The notes under the pieces were generated by a model. The model was not told the origin of the DNA, did no database searches, and saw nothing but the letters and a program-made list of their open reading frames with translations. DNA of 57,338 nucleotides from Candidatus Auribacterota bacterium (GTDB lineage: Bacteria; Auribacterota; Tritonobacteria; UBA1439). How positions within the stretch are numbered: the first letter of the stretch is position 1; every line of letters begins with the position of its first letter. The stretch spans positions 1 to 57,338 of the forward strand of contig JAPLCX010000054.1 in assembly GCA_026392035.1 (NCBI GenBank). The letters are read 5' to 3'. Of this stretch, positions 2,691 to 55,341 are shown piece by piece. A program made the position numbers and the translations under genes.

Positions 2691-2984
2691 TTCGTGGCTC
2701 GTCGTTCGTGAATCGTCATACATCCTCACCCGCCATAGGCGGGCAAGCCCTGACTTCATCCGCCGCAGGCGGACCTCTCCCCTCCGAGGGAGAGGGAATT
2801 GCTGGACATCCCCCAAAAACGTATCATCCAAATACACAATGCGTTGTGTCGGAATTGGATACAGTATTTGCAAAGTGAAACAGATCATATTTTGTAGGTG
2901 TATTCCGATGCATAATCCACCACGGAGGCACGGAGGACACGGAGATAACGTACTACCCTAAACAATAGGTCATTACAGTAGTTC

Positions 2985-3213
2985 GGTTCTCTTGCACTTT
3001 GTGTGGATAAAGGGTCATATACTGCCGCCTTACCTTCTCATTGTAGGGGTTCGATTTATCGAACCCGCATCAAAGCGGGCTTGATAAAACTTGTCCTGAG
3101 CGAAGCCGAAGGATCAAGCCCCTACAGGCTAAAAACACACAAGAGCACCTGTAGCGCATTCATAGCTGATTCAGCCTGCAACGCAGATCGCCCACACAAA
3201 ATGGAAGAGAACC
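2985..3213. mobile_element. MITE with ISL3-type ends
   Basis: A 229-bp non-coding element whose right end matches 22 of 23 bases, and left end 22 of 26 bases, of the terminal inverted repeats of the complete ISL3-like element at 39074-40400. It is flanked by AGTAGTTC (2977-2984) and AGTAGTTT (3214-3221), a 7/8 match to an 8-bp target duplication, the same length as that of the full element. It carries no transposase, so it was probably mobilised in trans. Its interior holds a TGTAGGGG...CCCCTACA hairpin. Confidence 0.75.
3042..3126. repeat. TGTAGGGG-capped palindromic repeat, copy 1
   Basis: Outer arms TGTAGGGG (3042-3049) and CCCCTACA (3119-3126) enclose smaller self-complementary words such as TTCGAT/ATCGAA. 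Two further elements with the same cap are at 4533-4633 and 13753-13817; the inner segment 'cttgtcctgagcgaagccga' recurs in reverse complement in the copy at 4533. Confidence 0.65.
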
Positions 3214-3251
3214 AGTAGTTTTTTCTCTGTGGCTTCTCCGTGCTCTCTGTG

Positions 3252-4210: not shown

Positions 4211-4288
4211 TTGCCGCTGATACACGCAGATACACGCGGATTGCATAAAGGTTTATCTGCGTTCATCCGCGTAAATCCGCGGCTAAAA
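4211..4288. repeat. Word-repeat hairpin (cgcgga/ctgata words)
   Basis: The left arm 'gccgctgatacacgcagata' and onward is matched by a right arm ending 'atccgcggctaaaacc'. Both arms consist of an approximately 11-bp word (acacgcaga/acacgcgga and its complement). It lies in the 4072-4800 gap, which holds only repeat elements and no recognisable gene. Confidence 0.6.
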
Positions 4289-16150: not shown

Positions 16151-16387
16151 GCACAGATAAACACAGATAAACACAGATGGACACAGATGGACACAGATAA
16201 TGGGAACAGGATGGACGGGGATGGCCACGGATTGAGTGGAGAGGGGAACCACTGCAGAGAAAGACATAACCACTGAAGACACTGAAGGCACTGAAAGATT
16301 CAAACAAACGGTACCTCAGTGTATTCAGTGTTTTCAGTGGTGAGAAATAATCTGTGTTTATCCGTGCGAATCTGTGTTCATCTGTGG
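16151..16387. repeat. Nested word-repeat hairpin (acacagatNN outside, cactgaagN inside)
   Basis: The outer left arm (16151-16199) is five copies of a strict 10-bp word acacagatNN, and the outer right arm (16351-16387) its complement. Inside lie three 9-bp cactgaagN words (16270-16296) and their complement (16315-16340). It fills the 298-bp gap between the large and Fe-S subunit genes of one operon. No gene is visible in the gap. Confidence 0.8.
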
Positions 16388-17736: not shown

Positions 17737-17826
17737 ACCACAGATAAACACAGATAACATCATAAGTCAAGAAAGCGGTGACTAAAAAATCTGTGTTCAT
17801 CCGTGTGTATCTGTGTCCATCTGTGG
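17737..17826. repeat. Word-repeat hairpin (acacagat words)
   Basis: The left arm ccacagataaacacagata (17738-17756) pairs with the right arm of tctgtgtNcatc words (17789-17826). Same word family as the outer arms at 16151-16387, 31771-31905 and 45599-45733. It lies between the FAD subunit and the DPD-like gene. Confidence 0.75.
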
Positions 17827-31770: not shown

Positions 31771-31905
31771 TAACCACAGATGCGTGCCACAGCCGCAAGC
31801 TTAAAGTAAAAGGTGTAAAGTATAAGGCACGAAGCATTCTTTCAACTTTCAGCTTTACGCTTTGAACTGTGGTGGGCATCTGTGTATATCTGTGCACATC
31901 TGTGA
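31771..31905. repeat. Nested word-repeat hairpin (acacagat outside, taaaggtgtaaag inside)
   Basis: The outer words ccacagatg and gcatctgtgtatatctgtg enclose inner words aaagtaaaaggtgtaaagta and their complement (ctttcaactttcagctttac). The same outer/inner pairing of word families occurs at 45599-45733, 14 kb away. It fills the gap between the HAD and flavin-reductase genes. Confidence 0.75.
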
Positions 31906-38572: not shown

Positions 38573-38670
38573 TGCCACGGATTTACGCGGATGTACGCTG
38601 ATACAACCTGCTCTCATACTTTGGTTTTAGTGTAATTCAATCCGTGCTCATCTGCGTCAATCCGCGGCTA
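38573..38670. repeat. Word-repeat hairpin (acgcggat words)
   Basis: The left arm ccacggatttacgcggatgt (38576-38595) and onward pairs with the right arm aatccgtgctcatctgcgtc... (38639-38670). It belongs to the cgcggat word family also seen at 4211-4288 and 47330-47575. Confidence 0.7.
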
Positions 38671-41941: not shown

Positions 41942-43030
41942 ATGAGCATTGAAATACTTTTGAACCGGGAGGCTGAATGGCTGATGGGCGGAGGCCCTGA
42001 TGCCAAGATCGTGGTGAGCAGCCGTGTGCGGTTCGCGAGGAATGTGCGCGGCTTCGTATTTCCAGGCCGCGCGGACACCGAGACGCGAAACAGGGTCCGG
42101 GAACTCATCGAGGAGAGCATCGAGCGTTCCAGGCTCATGCAGGGGTCTCTCTCGGTGCGCCTTGATGAGCTCGGGGAACTGGACAGGCAATTCCTGGTCG
42201 AGCGTCATCTGATAAGCCGTGAACACGCGAGGGGCGACGAGGGGAGCGCGCTGGCGATCGGCGATAAAGAGATCATGAGCCTGATGGTCAACGAGGAGGA
42301 CCACCTCCGCCTTCAGATTCTCCGGTCAGGATTCCAGCTCAAGGAAGCCCTCGCGGAGATCAATGAGATGGATGACGAATTGGAGAAGTCCATCGAATAC
42401 GCCTTCCTCCCGACCGTCGGGTATCTAACCTCCTGCCCCACGAATGTGGGTACCGGCATGAGGGCGTCGGTGATGCTCCATCTCCCCGGCCTGGTGGTGG
42501 CAAATCAGATCAATCAGGTGGTGCAGGCGATCGCGAAGCTGGGGCTGGCGGTGAGAGGCCTCTATGGAGAGGGGACAGAGGCATCGGGAAATCTCTTCCA
42601 GATATCCAACCAGATCACCCTCGGCATGGCGGAGAAGGATATCGTCGAGAACCTGGAAAAGGTCATCAACCAGATCGTGGAACACGAGAAAAAGGCTCAG
42701 CAGGCGCTTTTCAGAAAGAACTTCAAAGCGCTCGAAGACCGGGTATGCAGGGCCTACGGCATGCTGACCGGCGCCCGGATTATCACCTCCAAGGAAACGA
42801 TCGATCTGCTCTCTGCGCTCAAGATGGGAATCGACTTTCATATTGTTGATATCGATCTGGGCACGATCAATGAGCTCTTTATCGTCACCCAGCCGGCGCA
42901 CCTCCAGAAACTGGCGGGGAGGGACTTGAAACCGGAGGAGCGTGATGTCGTTCGCGCGGACCTGATCCGCGCGAGGCTCGGAGAAAAGGGGAAGAGAGGC
43001 AAATCTCAAAACCCCAGTAGTAAGGATTAA
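41942..43030 (+). CDS. mcsB: Protein-arginine kinase McsB
   Basis: A 362-aa phosphagen-kinase-fold protein: ATP-binding SSRVRFARNVRG, CPTNVGTGMRASVMLHLP and the C-terminal guanidino-kinase domain region. McsB phosphorylates arginines of misfolded proteins to mark them for ClpC-ClpP. ATG 41942 has GCAGGAACA upstream. The last residues (SSKD) and the stop codon lie in an aaggattaagc word element. Confidence 0.93.
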   Translation: MSIEILLNREAEWLMGGGPDAKIVVSSRVRFARNVRGFVFPGRADTETRNRVRELIEESIERSRLMQGSLSVRLDELGELDRQFLVERHLISREHARGDEGSALAIGDKEIMSLMVNEEDHLRLQILRSGFQLKEALAEINEMDDELEKSIEYAFLPTVGYLTSCPTNVGTGMRASVMLHLPGLVVANQINQVVQAIAKLGLAVRGLYGEGTEASGNLFQISNQITLGMAEKDIVENLEKVINQIVEHEKKAQQALFRKNFKALEDRVCRAYGMLTGARIITSKETIDLLSALKMGIDFHIVDIDLGTINELFIVTQPAHLQKLAGRDLKPEERDVVRADLIRARLGEKGKRGKSQNPSSKD

Positions 43031-43090
43031 GCACTAAGGATTAAGCGATGAGTAATAAGCTTACCGCTTAATGCTTAATCCTTAGGGCTT
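43018..43090. repeat. Word-repeat hairpin (aaggattaagc words) at the mcsB end
   Basis: The left arm holds two 14-bp words (taaggattaagcac, taaggattaagcga) and encodes the mcsB stop TAA at 43028-43030. The right arm (43065-43090) is the complement, gcttaatgcttaatccttag. It could act as a terminator or mRNA stabiliser between mcsB and clpC. Confidence 0.8.
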
Positions 43091-45598: not shown

Positions 45599-45733
45599 TC
45601 ACGGATAAACACAGATTGTGCGCTACAGTTAAAGGTGTAAGGTCAAAAGTGTAAAAAGGAGCGCGCGTCTCATACTTTATGCCTTGGGCTTTTTGCTGTT
45701 TTGCAATCTGTGTTCATCCGTGTTCATCTGTGG
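45599..45733. repeat. Nested word-repeat hairpin (acacagat outside, taaaggtgtaagg inside)
   Basis: The left arm tcacggataaacacagattg (45599-45618) pairs with the right arm of caatctgtgttcatccgtg and onward (45704-45733). Inside, gttaaaggtgtaaggtcaaa-type words pair with catactttatgccttggg. It shares both word families and their order with 31771-31905. The rest of the 371-bp gap to radA shows nothing. Confidence 0.75.
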
Positions 45734-47589: not shown

Positions 47590-48303
47590 ATGGAAACAGT
47601 GGCGATAGTCGTGGCGGCGGGAGCGGGCCGCAGGATGGGGAGCCTGTGCAAGGCGCTCCTCGACATCAGCGGCAAACCGATCCTCACCTACTCACTCGAG
47701 GTGCTGCAAAAATCCGACCTCATCGATGGCATATGTGTCGTCGTGCAACCGGAGCTCATGGACTCGTTTAAAAAGGAATCCTCGATCCGGTGGCCGTTCG
47801 AGAAGATCTTCGCCTGGGTCGCCGGCGGAGCGCGCAGGCAGGACTCCGTCGCCGCGGCGCTGAACGTTGTTCCAGGTGATGTGTCACTGATCGCCGTGCA
47901 CGATGCGGCACGCCCTTTTATCACGGGCGCGCTACTGCAGAGGCTGATTGCCGCCGCCCGAGTGAGGGGCGCGGCGATCCCGGCGATTGAGGTTGTGGAT
48001 ACGATCAAGGAGATGACAGACTCAGGAATCGTGGGCCGGTCGCTCGACAGGGGAAAGCTGCGGGCAGTACAGACCCCCCAGGTGTTTGACGCAGAGCTCC
48101 TGCGGCGGGCATACCGCAACGCGGAGAAAGCCGGGATCACGGCCACGGACGATGCCGCGCTTGTCGAGCTCATCGGGCATGAGGTCGCCGTGGTTGAGGG
48201 GAGCCGCGCCAATATCAAGATCACCCTGCGGGACGATCTGGAATTGGCAGAGAAGATACTAAAACAAAAATCCCAAATCCCAAATCCCAAATCCCAAAGA
48301 TGA
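47590..48303 (+). CDS. ispD: 2-C-methyl-D-erythritol 4-phosphate cytidylyltransferase
   Basis: A 237-aa protein: CTP-binding VVAAGAGRRMGS and K, HDAARPFI motif, and a C-terminal region typical of IspD. It makes CDP-methylerythritol in the MEP isoprenoid pathway. The final residues (QKSQIPNPKSQR) are encoded by a 7-bp tcccaaa tandem repeat and are not a conserved part of the family. ispF follows after 100 bp. Confidence 0.95.
   Translation: METVAIVVAAGAGRRMGSLCKALLDISGKPILTYSLEVLQKSDLIDGICVVVQPELMDSFKKESSIRWPFEKIFAWVAGGARRQDSVAAALNVVPGDVSLIAVHDAARPFITGALLQRLIAAARVRGAAIPAIEVVDTIKEMTDSGIVGRSLDRGKLRAVQTPQVFDAELLRRAYRNAEKAGITATDDAALVELIGHEVAVVEGSRANIKITLRDDLELAEKILKQKSQIPNPKSQR
48271..48299. repeat. 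7-bp tandem repeat (tcccaaa) in the ispD 3-prime end
   Basis: Four copies of tcccaaa in a row at 48271-48299 encode the C-terminal SQIPNPKSQ residues of IspD. Its purpose is unknown; it resembles the other single-arm words welded to gene ends. Confidence 0.7.
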
Positions 48304-49183: not shown

Positions 49184-50656
49184 ATGCAGCAGGAATCGAA
49201 GCTCAAGGTGTACAACACCGCCACGAGGCGCGTGGAGGAGTTCCACTCTCTCAAACCCCGAGAAGTGGGGATGTACGTTTGCGGGCCGACAGTGTACGAT
49301 GACTGCCACATGGGGCATGCGAGGATGATGGTGGCGTTTGAGGTGGTCATCCGATGGCTTGAATACCGTGGCTTCAAGGTAAAGTATGTGCTTAATATTA
49401 CTGATATCGACGACAAAATTATCAAGCGGGCTGCGGAACGGGGAATGCCGTGCTCGGAGCTTGCGGAGCATTATCTCGAAGAGTTCCATAAGGATATGGA
49501 CAGGCTTGCATTGAGAAATCCGACGGTTGAGCCGAGGGCCACGGCTCACATCCAGGAGATGATAAAACTGATTTCCGCACTTTGGGAGAAGGGCTTCGCC
49601 TATGAGGCTAATGGCGATGTGTACTATGATGTGAGCCGGTTCCCCAATTACGGGAAACTTTCAAGAAGAAATACCGATGAGTTGCTTGCTGGCGCCAGGG
49701 TGGAGATTAACGAGCGCAAGAAGAACCCGCTTGATTTTGTCCTCTGGAAGTCCGCGAAACCGGGCGAGCCGCAGTGGCCCAGCCCGTGGGGACCCGGAAG
49801 GCCTGGCTGGCATATCGAGTGCTCAACCATGTCAACGAAGTATCTTGGCAAGACGTTTGATATCCATGGAGGAGGCCAGGATCTCATTTTCCCGCACCAC
49901 GAAAATGAAATCGCGCAGTCCGAGGGCGCGACGGGGAATCCCCTAGCTTGTTACTGGCTGCATAACGCACTTGTGATGGTGGACGAGACAAAGATGTCAA
50001 AGTCTCTCGGTAATTTTTTTACGCTAAAAGAAGTGTTCCAGAAATATGACCCGCACGTGGTCAGATATTTTCTCCTGAGCAAACACTATCGCACCCCTAT
50101 AGATTTTTCCGAGAGCAGCCTGTCCGAGGCGCGCGTTTCTCTCCGCCGCCTTGATGAGTGCGTTGCGCGCGCTCAGGAAGCCGTGGGGGGGGTGATCGAA
50201 CCGGCGGCAGCATGCCCGGAGCGGTTCGTCGCAGCGATGGACGAGGATTTCAATACGACCGAGGCGCTCGGCGTTGTGTTCAATTTGGTGAGCAGGGCTC
50301 ATGTCGAACTTGACGGGAGGGGAACCGGCTGGGCTGAGAGCGCCCGCAGGATCGCGGCGGATATTCGTAAGTGCTGCGAGGTGCTGGGGATACCATTGGT
50401 CACGGGCGAGGCCGTGCGCGTGACCGCCGCGGAGGAGGCGTTTGACAGGGAAGGGATCGAGCGTCTGCTCGGACGGGAATCGCTCAGCCAGGCCGAAGTC
50501 GAGAAGCTCCTGAAGGCACGGAACGCCCTGAGGGCCCGGAAGGAGTTTTCTCTTGCTGACCGGATCAGGCTGAGAGTCCAGGCGATGGGATATGAGGTGA
50601 GGGACGATAAGGGGAAAGGGAGCATGGCACGCAAGGGCATGAAAAGGAAGGTTTGA
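49184..50656 (+). CDS. cysS: Cysteinyl-tRNA synthetase
   Basis: A 490-aa class I synthetase: zinc/ATP site CGPTVYDDCHMGHAR, DDKI motif, the second zinc ligands in WHIECS, KMSKS (ETKMSKSLGNF) and a DALR-type C-terminal region. ATG 49184 with TAGGTAGGA upstream is used; a longer frame to 49142 would translate an aaggattaagc word repeat. The stop codon lies in a tttgaaccg word repeat. Confidence 0.95.
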   Translation: MQQESKLKVYNTATRRVEEFHSLKPREVGMYVCGPTVYDDCHMGHARMMVAFEVVIRWLEYRGFKVKYVLNITDIDDKIIKRAAERGMPCSELAEHYLEEFHKDMDRLALRNPTVEPRATAHIQEMIKLISALWEKGFAYEANGDVYYDVSRFPNYGKLSRRNTDELLAGARVEINERKKNPLDFVLWKSAKPGEPQWPSPWGPGRPGWHIECSTMSTKYLGKTFDIHGGGQDLIFPHHENEIAQSEGATGNPLACYWLHNALVMVDETKMSKSLGNFFTLKEVFQKYDPHVVRYFLLSKHYRTPIDFSESSLSEARVSLRRLDECVARAQEAVGGVIEPAAACPERFVAAMDEDFNTTEALGVVFNLVSRAHVELDGRGTGWAESARRIAADIRKCCEVLGIPLVTGEAVRVTAAEEAFDREGIERLLGRESLSQAEVEKLLKARNALRARKEFSLADRIRLRVQAMGYEVRDDKGKGSMARKGMKRKV

Positions 50657-50756
50657 ACCGTTTGAGCTGTGTGAGCCGGTTGAACGGTTTGAGCCGTTTA
50701 ATGGTAGTGCGTCTGGCGGCTCAAACGATTCGAACAGTTGAAACGGTTCAAACGAT
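50651..50756. repeat. Word-repeat hairpin (tttgagccg words) at the cysS end
   Basis: The left arm of tttgaaccg/tttgagctg/tgagccggt words (50651-50700) includes the cysS TGA. The right arm (50715-50756) is ggcggctcaaacgattcg and onward. Same family as 48879-48946. It fills the gap before tmk. Confidence 0.75.
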
Positions 50757-52800: not shown

Positions 52801-52884
52801 ACCACTGAGGGCACTGAATTTACTGAAAACCGAAGAATAGACAATGTTTTCAGTGTTCTCAGTATATTCAGTGTCTTCAGTGGT
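52801..52884. repeat. Word-repeat hairpin (cactgaagN words)
   Basis: The left arm accactgagggcactgaatt (52801-52820) and onward pairs with gttttcagtgttctcagtat... (52846-52884). Same 9-bp word family as the inner arms at 16270-16340. It lies in the 278-bp gap between holB and ricT, which otherwise shows a short fragment of the GCATTGCGAG-type repeat (about 52740-52770). Confidence 0.8.
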
Positions 52885-55249: not shown

Positions 55250-55341
55250 GGTAAGGATTAAGCCGTAAGGATTAAGCTATACGTGGTATGGAATATATGT
55301 ATTTGCTTACTGCTTACTGCTTACTGCTTAATCCTTAATCC
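55250..55341. repeat. Word-repeat hairpin (aaggattaagc words) between metG and tatD
   Basis: The left arm (55250-55277) has two 14-bp words gtaaggattaagcc/gtaaggattaagct. The right arm (55304-55341) has gcttactgcttactgcttac and ...taatccttaatcc. It starts 2 nt after the metG stop TAG. Confidence 0.8.

Follow-up and report, generated by a model that had tools for sequence, protein, structure and literature searches.

Short palindromic elements built of iterated words have barely been described before, and the closest known system is that of the paired tandem-repeat sites of Geobacter metallireducens, predicted there to be binding sites of global regulators and divided into classes 1-3 (Aklujkar et al., 2009, PMC2700814). 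In that report, these sites are paired tandem repeats of 7-9 nt, placed on opposite strands at variable distance, for which binding by IHF/HU was proposed, and the class 2 consensus is TCTCCGTS[Y] in three repeats of 8-9 nt (PMC2700814). In G. bemidjiensis, multicopy sequences occupy 12% of intergenic regions, and 31% of those hold several (PMC2996986). The insertion of REP dimers into other palindromes is known (PMC3733652), and the TAACTGA heptamer repeats of Beggiatoaceae and others are direct, with 169 sets vs one indirect, and lie near start codons (PMC4679880).

We analyzed a window of 57,338 nucleotides, which is the whole of one contig (C54) in the 2.8 Mb, 122-contig genome of a Candidatus Auribacterota bacterium. 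The original prediction had described an acacagatNN hairpin enclosing a cactgaagN hairpin at 16151-16387, and acacagat hairpins enclosing an inner hairpin of another type at 31771-31905 and 45599-45733. These nests are present and beyond chance, the first at 16152-16386 and the other two with inner hairpins of the NNNAAAG type:

16152..16198, plus strand: five CACAGAT words with period 10, forming the outer element's left arm
16271..16295, plus strand: three CACTGAA words with period 9, forming the nested element's left arm
16315..16339, minus strand: three inverted CACTGAA words, forming the nested element's right arm
16350..16386, minus strand: four inverted CACAGAT words, forming the outer element's right arm
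31775..31904, no strand assigned: CACAGAT element around an NNNAAAG hairpin, inner hairpin at 31803-31863
45600..45732, no strand assigned: CACRGAT element around an NNNAAAG hairpin, inner hairpin at 45632-45692

The sequence CACAGATNNACACAGAT, with at most one mismatch, occurs 15 times in the window vs 0 expected, and CACTGAANNCACTGAA occurs 8 times vs 0.01 expected. Folded as a single strand, the 16152-16386 locus reaches -46 kcal/mol vs -26 ± 3.4 for shuffles (z -5.9), and its inner CACTGAA hairpin sits off-centre, with a loop of about 72 nt 5′ of it and 10 nt after. The left CACAGAT words of the 31775-31904 element are down to one, with three right words at 31878-31904, while the 45600-45732 element has two left words (45600-45616) and three right words (45706-45732). 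Further elements lie elsewhere in the window:

2921..3251, no strand assigned: CACGGAG element whose loop holds a 228-bp MITE
4215..4281, no strand assigned: CRCNGAT element, 3+3 words
17739..17825, no strand assigned: un-nested CACAGAT element, two gaps on from the one at 16.1 kb
38576..38666, no strand assigned: CRCNGAT element, 3+3 words, in a gap that is 20 bp in genome G003
52803..52882, no strand assigned: un-nested CACTGAR element

The gap of the 17739-17825 element measures 19-61 bp and is free of arrays in genomes G002-G005. The 228-bp MITE, at about 2985-3213, is bounded by 22-nt ends, GGTTCTCTTGCACTTTGTGTGG, and shows a short target duplication, and contig C46 holds an empty version of the CACGGAG element that carries it. 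Word hairpins or arrays of other families, namely GGATTAAG (two), GTTTGA and AAATCCC, are found at 43024-43081, 55255-55341, 50651-50753 and 48268-48297.

Word arrays of at least two words, from ten tallied families, occur in 342 of 1202 intergenic gaps across 1.92 Mb of the genome, a fraction that is approximate because genes were called by a crude script that missed some atypical genes, and because part of the sample was chosen around CACAGAT matches. In the first 0.89 Mb sampled, the gaps show autocorrelation peaks at lags 7, 14, 10 and 9, with 83 to 282 strong runs vs none in shuffles. The CACRGAT family has period 10 and 107 called pairs, the CACRGAG family period 8/9 and 47 pairs, and the CACTGAR family period 9 and 27 pairs; ACCTGAT and GTTTGA also have period 9, and the 7-nt families include AAATGAC, AAATCCC, TAAGGATTAAGC and NNNAAAG. 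The intergenic location is established, with 93-100% of arrays outside called genes for nearly all families (84% for AAATCCC). A dispersed repeat of about 125 bp, GATTGACGTGTGACACAGATTC...ACACTTGTAATAC, has CACAGAT words on one side only and is located on C36, C60, C61, C67, C75, C78 and C109 of this genome.

The architecture of the words and their polarity are likewise established. Nearly all arrays run from word to inverted word, the inward:outward ratios of pairs within 120 bp being 84:11, 27:0 (the CACGGAG family) and 22:5 for the three main families, and among 103 CACAGAT triples in named genomes an inverted array follows 52 and precedes 0. The loop is mostly 15-130 nt, with lengths of 33-245 nt at the 10th-90th percentiles of two groups. 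The arms are TIR-like ends of about three words each. The CACGGAG arm reads CACGGAG-R-CACGGAG-NN-CACGGAG, its words being spaced by 8 and then by 9 in 31 of the 35 arms that have three, and in CACTGAA arms the first filler differs from the second; this positional consensus of fillers and spacing marks the arms as ends rather than open-ended repeats. The outermost words differ from the inner ones in having an extra C and a T-rich lead, so that the tips read (T)AC, or a T-run and C-A-C, with the boundary before CAC.

Base-pair covariation between the two arms was sought in CACAGAT elements, both here and in other genomes, and none was detected. Fillers compared arm against arm agree about as often as chance predicts, both here (0.395 vs 0.364, z 0.9) and in other genomes (0.647 vs 0.614, z 1.5), and variable word positions agree no better between partners across the arms than between non-partners (0.77/0.66 vs 0.80/0.71 here; 0.82/0.76 vs 0.82/0.77 elsewhere). 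The lack of pair-specific covariation means that the words, and not the stems, are conserved, and a selected stem structure was rejected; the hairpin is a by-product of the inverted words, and the search is better directed at a word-reading protein than at an RNA structure.

Of the 167 elements, 102 fall into similarity groups. In many groups the likeness ends within about 7 bp of the tips and the flanks differ, so that copy groups ending at the tips are established; the remaining groups are parts of longer repeats. Gain and loss between genera are established as well. For the orthologous gap at 16.1 kb, every genus has a combination of its own, except that G004, whose two genes overlap at this point, has none. 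Across 79 orthologous gaps, arrays are present here only in 29, in the relative only in 4, in both in 11 (mostly of different families) and in neither in 35, and gaps with an array only here are longer by a median of 110 bp vs 32 bp for array-free gaps (p 0.002). There was no filled/empty pair with near-identical flanks for CACAGAT, CACGGAG or CACTGAA elements, orthologous flanks being 65-85% identical. No target-site duplication signal was seen for CACGGAG and CACTGAA elements, and the dinucleotide signal at the ends of CACAGAT elements is explained by palindromic AT; a classical transposon with target duplication was accordingly rejected. A long gene-carrying version was not found either: over 69% of the genome, three-word arms paired at 1-4 kb face inward no more often than outward.

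A RAYT/Y1 protein was considered as the mobilizer. Over 98 genomes, with relatedness uncorrected, the number of Y1 matches has a median of 5 where there are at least five word triples vs 1 where there are none, and word triples correlate with Y1 count at a Spearman coefficient of 0.48, vs 0.28 for a DDE transposase control. Despite this correlation the candidate was rejected, because the Y1 genes examined lack flanking words (of five matches in the readable sample, four are ORFs without a word array at their ends and the fifth is a broken copy) and because some word-rich genomes have at most one Y1.

The words reach well beyond this lineage. CACAGAT, the commonest word, is found with identical spacing and orientation in Chloroflexi, Cyanobacteria, Proteobacteria, Bacteroidetes, Verrucomicrobia, NC10, Planctomycetes and others. 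The distribution is patchy over the 98 genomes, with 0 or 1 match for reversed-pattern controls, and among five genomes of the same family a CACAGAT triple occurs in one and CACGGAG triples in three. A phage origin was set aside, the CACAGAT triple being on only 18 viral stretches. On a gammaproteobacterial contig (L200, near 2090), an inverted word array CGCAAAGGCGCAAAG...CTTTGCGGTCTTGGCG adjoins a CACAGAT element. None of six CACAGAT or CACGGAG array strings was met in the literature searched.

The original prediction offered two accounts of nesting, insertion of one type into the loop of another or a grammar of combinations, and of these it is insertion that has held. The insertion of a palindrome and of MITEs into arrays is established: a 20-bp palindrome, CCTGCCTGCCGGCAGGCAGG (CCTGCC[TC]GCCGGC[AG]GGCAGG), interrupts word arrays, while sibling copies show the site cleanly empty, and MITEs bounded by ends of their own, one of them in the window, sit in element loops with clean filled/empty pairs. 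The palindrome has 37 copies in the readable genome (at 3254, 4603 and 10614 of the window, and 34 others), with 0 in called genes; 26 of the 37 lie within 22 bp of a CACAGAT, CACGGAG or CACTGAA word, vs 13% expected at random gap positions, and it often directly follows GTC or ATC. At C27:3114-3819, a 161-bp MITE with TGTG...CACA ends and an inner GTCATTGCGAGG hairpin, with CTAG on both sides, lies inside a composite element. For the nest at 16.3 kb, we infer that the inner CACTGAA hairpin arrived by insertion.

A general grammar of nesting is not supported, as loops hold other families' arrays at no higher density than the sequence outside them (2.74 vs 2.75 per kb), and at a lower one once copies are removed (0.74 vs 2.92, p 0.01); the apparent enrichment in CACGGAG loops is largely due to a copied composite. 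The expectation that inner families recur in loops non-randomly thus fails for other families and survives for NNNAAAG, with 8 of its 12 hairpins inside CACAGAT loops, to which 1.8% of intergenic bases belong; the binomial p of 6e-12 is naive because the copies are not independent. This is the sole association that looks non-random, though much of it is one copied composite. The group that includes the 31.8 kb element, together with copies on C25, C30, C36 and C64, shows identities of 73-91%, part of which stems from the shared words. The 31.8 kb element is related to C36 over the element at 77%, more weakly to C30 and C64, while the 45.7 kb element matches C36 at 72.6% in opposite orientation, and both matches to C36 end at or inside the element tips. 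On the best reading of these alignments, both NNNAAAG nests of the window are probably relatives of one dispersed composite, and common descent would most simply account for the outer/inner arrangement that these two places, 14 kb from each other, have in common. In other phyla a significant inner hairpin occurs in 4 of 20 loops of at least 35 nt, most loops being short or unstructured, and in candidate division NC10 a CACAGAT element is nested inside another. The choice between insertion and grammar mostly resolves to mobile elements plus the copying of composites, with one association looking real.

We consider it probable that these are non-autonomous mobile elements, short and palindromic and resembling MITEs or REPs, which are sometimes nested and whose composites are then copied. 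Such an element would consist of inverted ends of about three 7-nt words at fixed spacing around a loop. It would land in intergenic gaps, for the most part behind or between genes that run the same way, and occasionally in the loop of another element, and the nested composite would then spread as one unit. One protein may read the words of both arms, much as a transposase reads transposon ends.

The conservation of the word rather than the stem, and the three words at fixed spacing, would also suit paired operator or architectural sites, in which a nucleoid or regulatory protein binds the tandem words and loops or anchors the DNA between genes, as in the IHF/HU proposal of Aklujkar et al. for the class 1-3 sites. 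That account is unlikely, as copies share loops but have unrelated flanks, one and the same gap holds different families or none across sister genera, and elements avoid the gaps between divergent genes, where promoters lie (22% vs 38%, p 0.001). Elements are commoner in co-directional and convergent gaps and lie closer to the stop codon upstream (median 26 nt) than to the start codon downstream (51 nt), which, with the strong fold, is what would be expected of RNA hairpins kept at 3′ ends or between cistrons as a stabilizer, terminator or processing signal. We nevertheless hold this to be quite improbable: the partner positions lack covariation, the T-run before the stem and A-run after it stand in the reverse of the order of an intrinsic terminator, and a search of the window against Rfam 15 matched zero curated families at the gathering threshold.

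Tandem words of short period are a typical product of slippage, yet an origin by chance, or by replication slippage followed by inverted duplication, is scarcely credible, and in its simple form is refuted. Fillers within one CACAGAT arm are no more alike than fillers of different elements (z 0.5), so the arrays were not made recently by slippage and growth by that route was rejected; moreover, the two arms are not copies of one another, the reversed-pattern controls are nearly empty, and word, spacing and polarity recur across phyla. Beyond the reading as mobile elements, it is possible, if tentative, that one widespread recognition system reads about three 7-nt words per end and moves such elements without target duplication in many phyla; its versions CACAGAT, CACGGAG, CACTGAA and the heptamers would share polarity, and the CACNGAN words the tip ACCAC. 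With a quarter to a third of this genome's gaps between genes carrying elements, a mobilizing or binding protein, if found, would account for a large part of the non-coding repeats that environmental genomes contain.

Among known systems, the TAACTGA repeats are likewise intergenic tandem 7-nt words with a patchy distribution across phyla, but they are direct, whereas the elements here are inverted pairs and lie nearer to stop codons. Bacterial MITEs share inverted ends, the dispersal of copies as a unit and mutual insertion, though the ends here are iterated words, target-site duplication is not found, and for a parent transposon with the same ends, the inward pairs 1-4 kb apart show no excess in the 69% of the genome covered. 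REP, REPIN and BIME sequences, the RAYT-associated palindromes, are also short, extragenic, palindromic, multicopy and mosaic, with target duplication unseen. The arms here differ in being word arrays without covariation, the GTAG or CGTC tag is absent from the tips, and the Y1 genes examined are not flanked by the repeats as a cognate RAYT is. The published consensus of Geobacter class 2, TCTCCGTS[Y], is the reverse complement of the CACGGAG arm, and the CACGGAG family has both its repeat pattern and its opposite-strand pairing at variable distance; the CACAGAT and CACTGAA words do not follow that pattern. In Geobacter the sites are read as protein-binding sites of one species (PMC2700814), and to them the present elements add CACAGAT, CACTGAA and more words, a spread over several phyla, gain and loss, copy groups and nesting.
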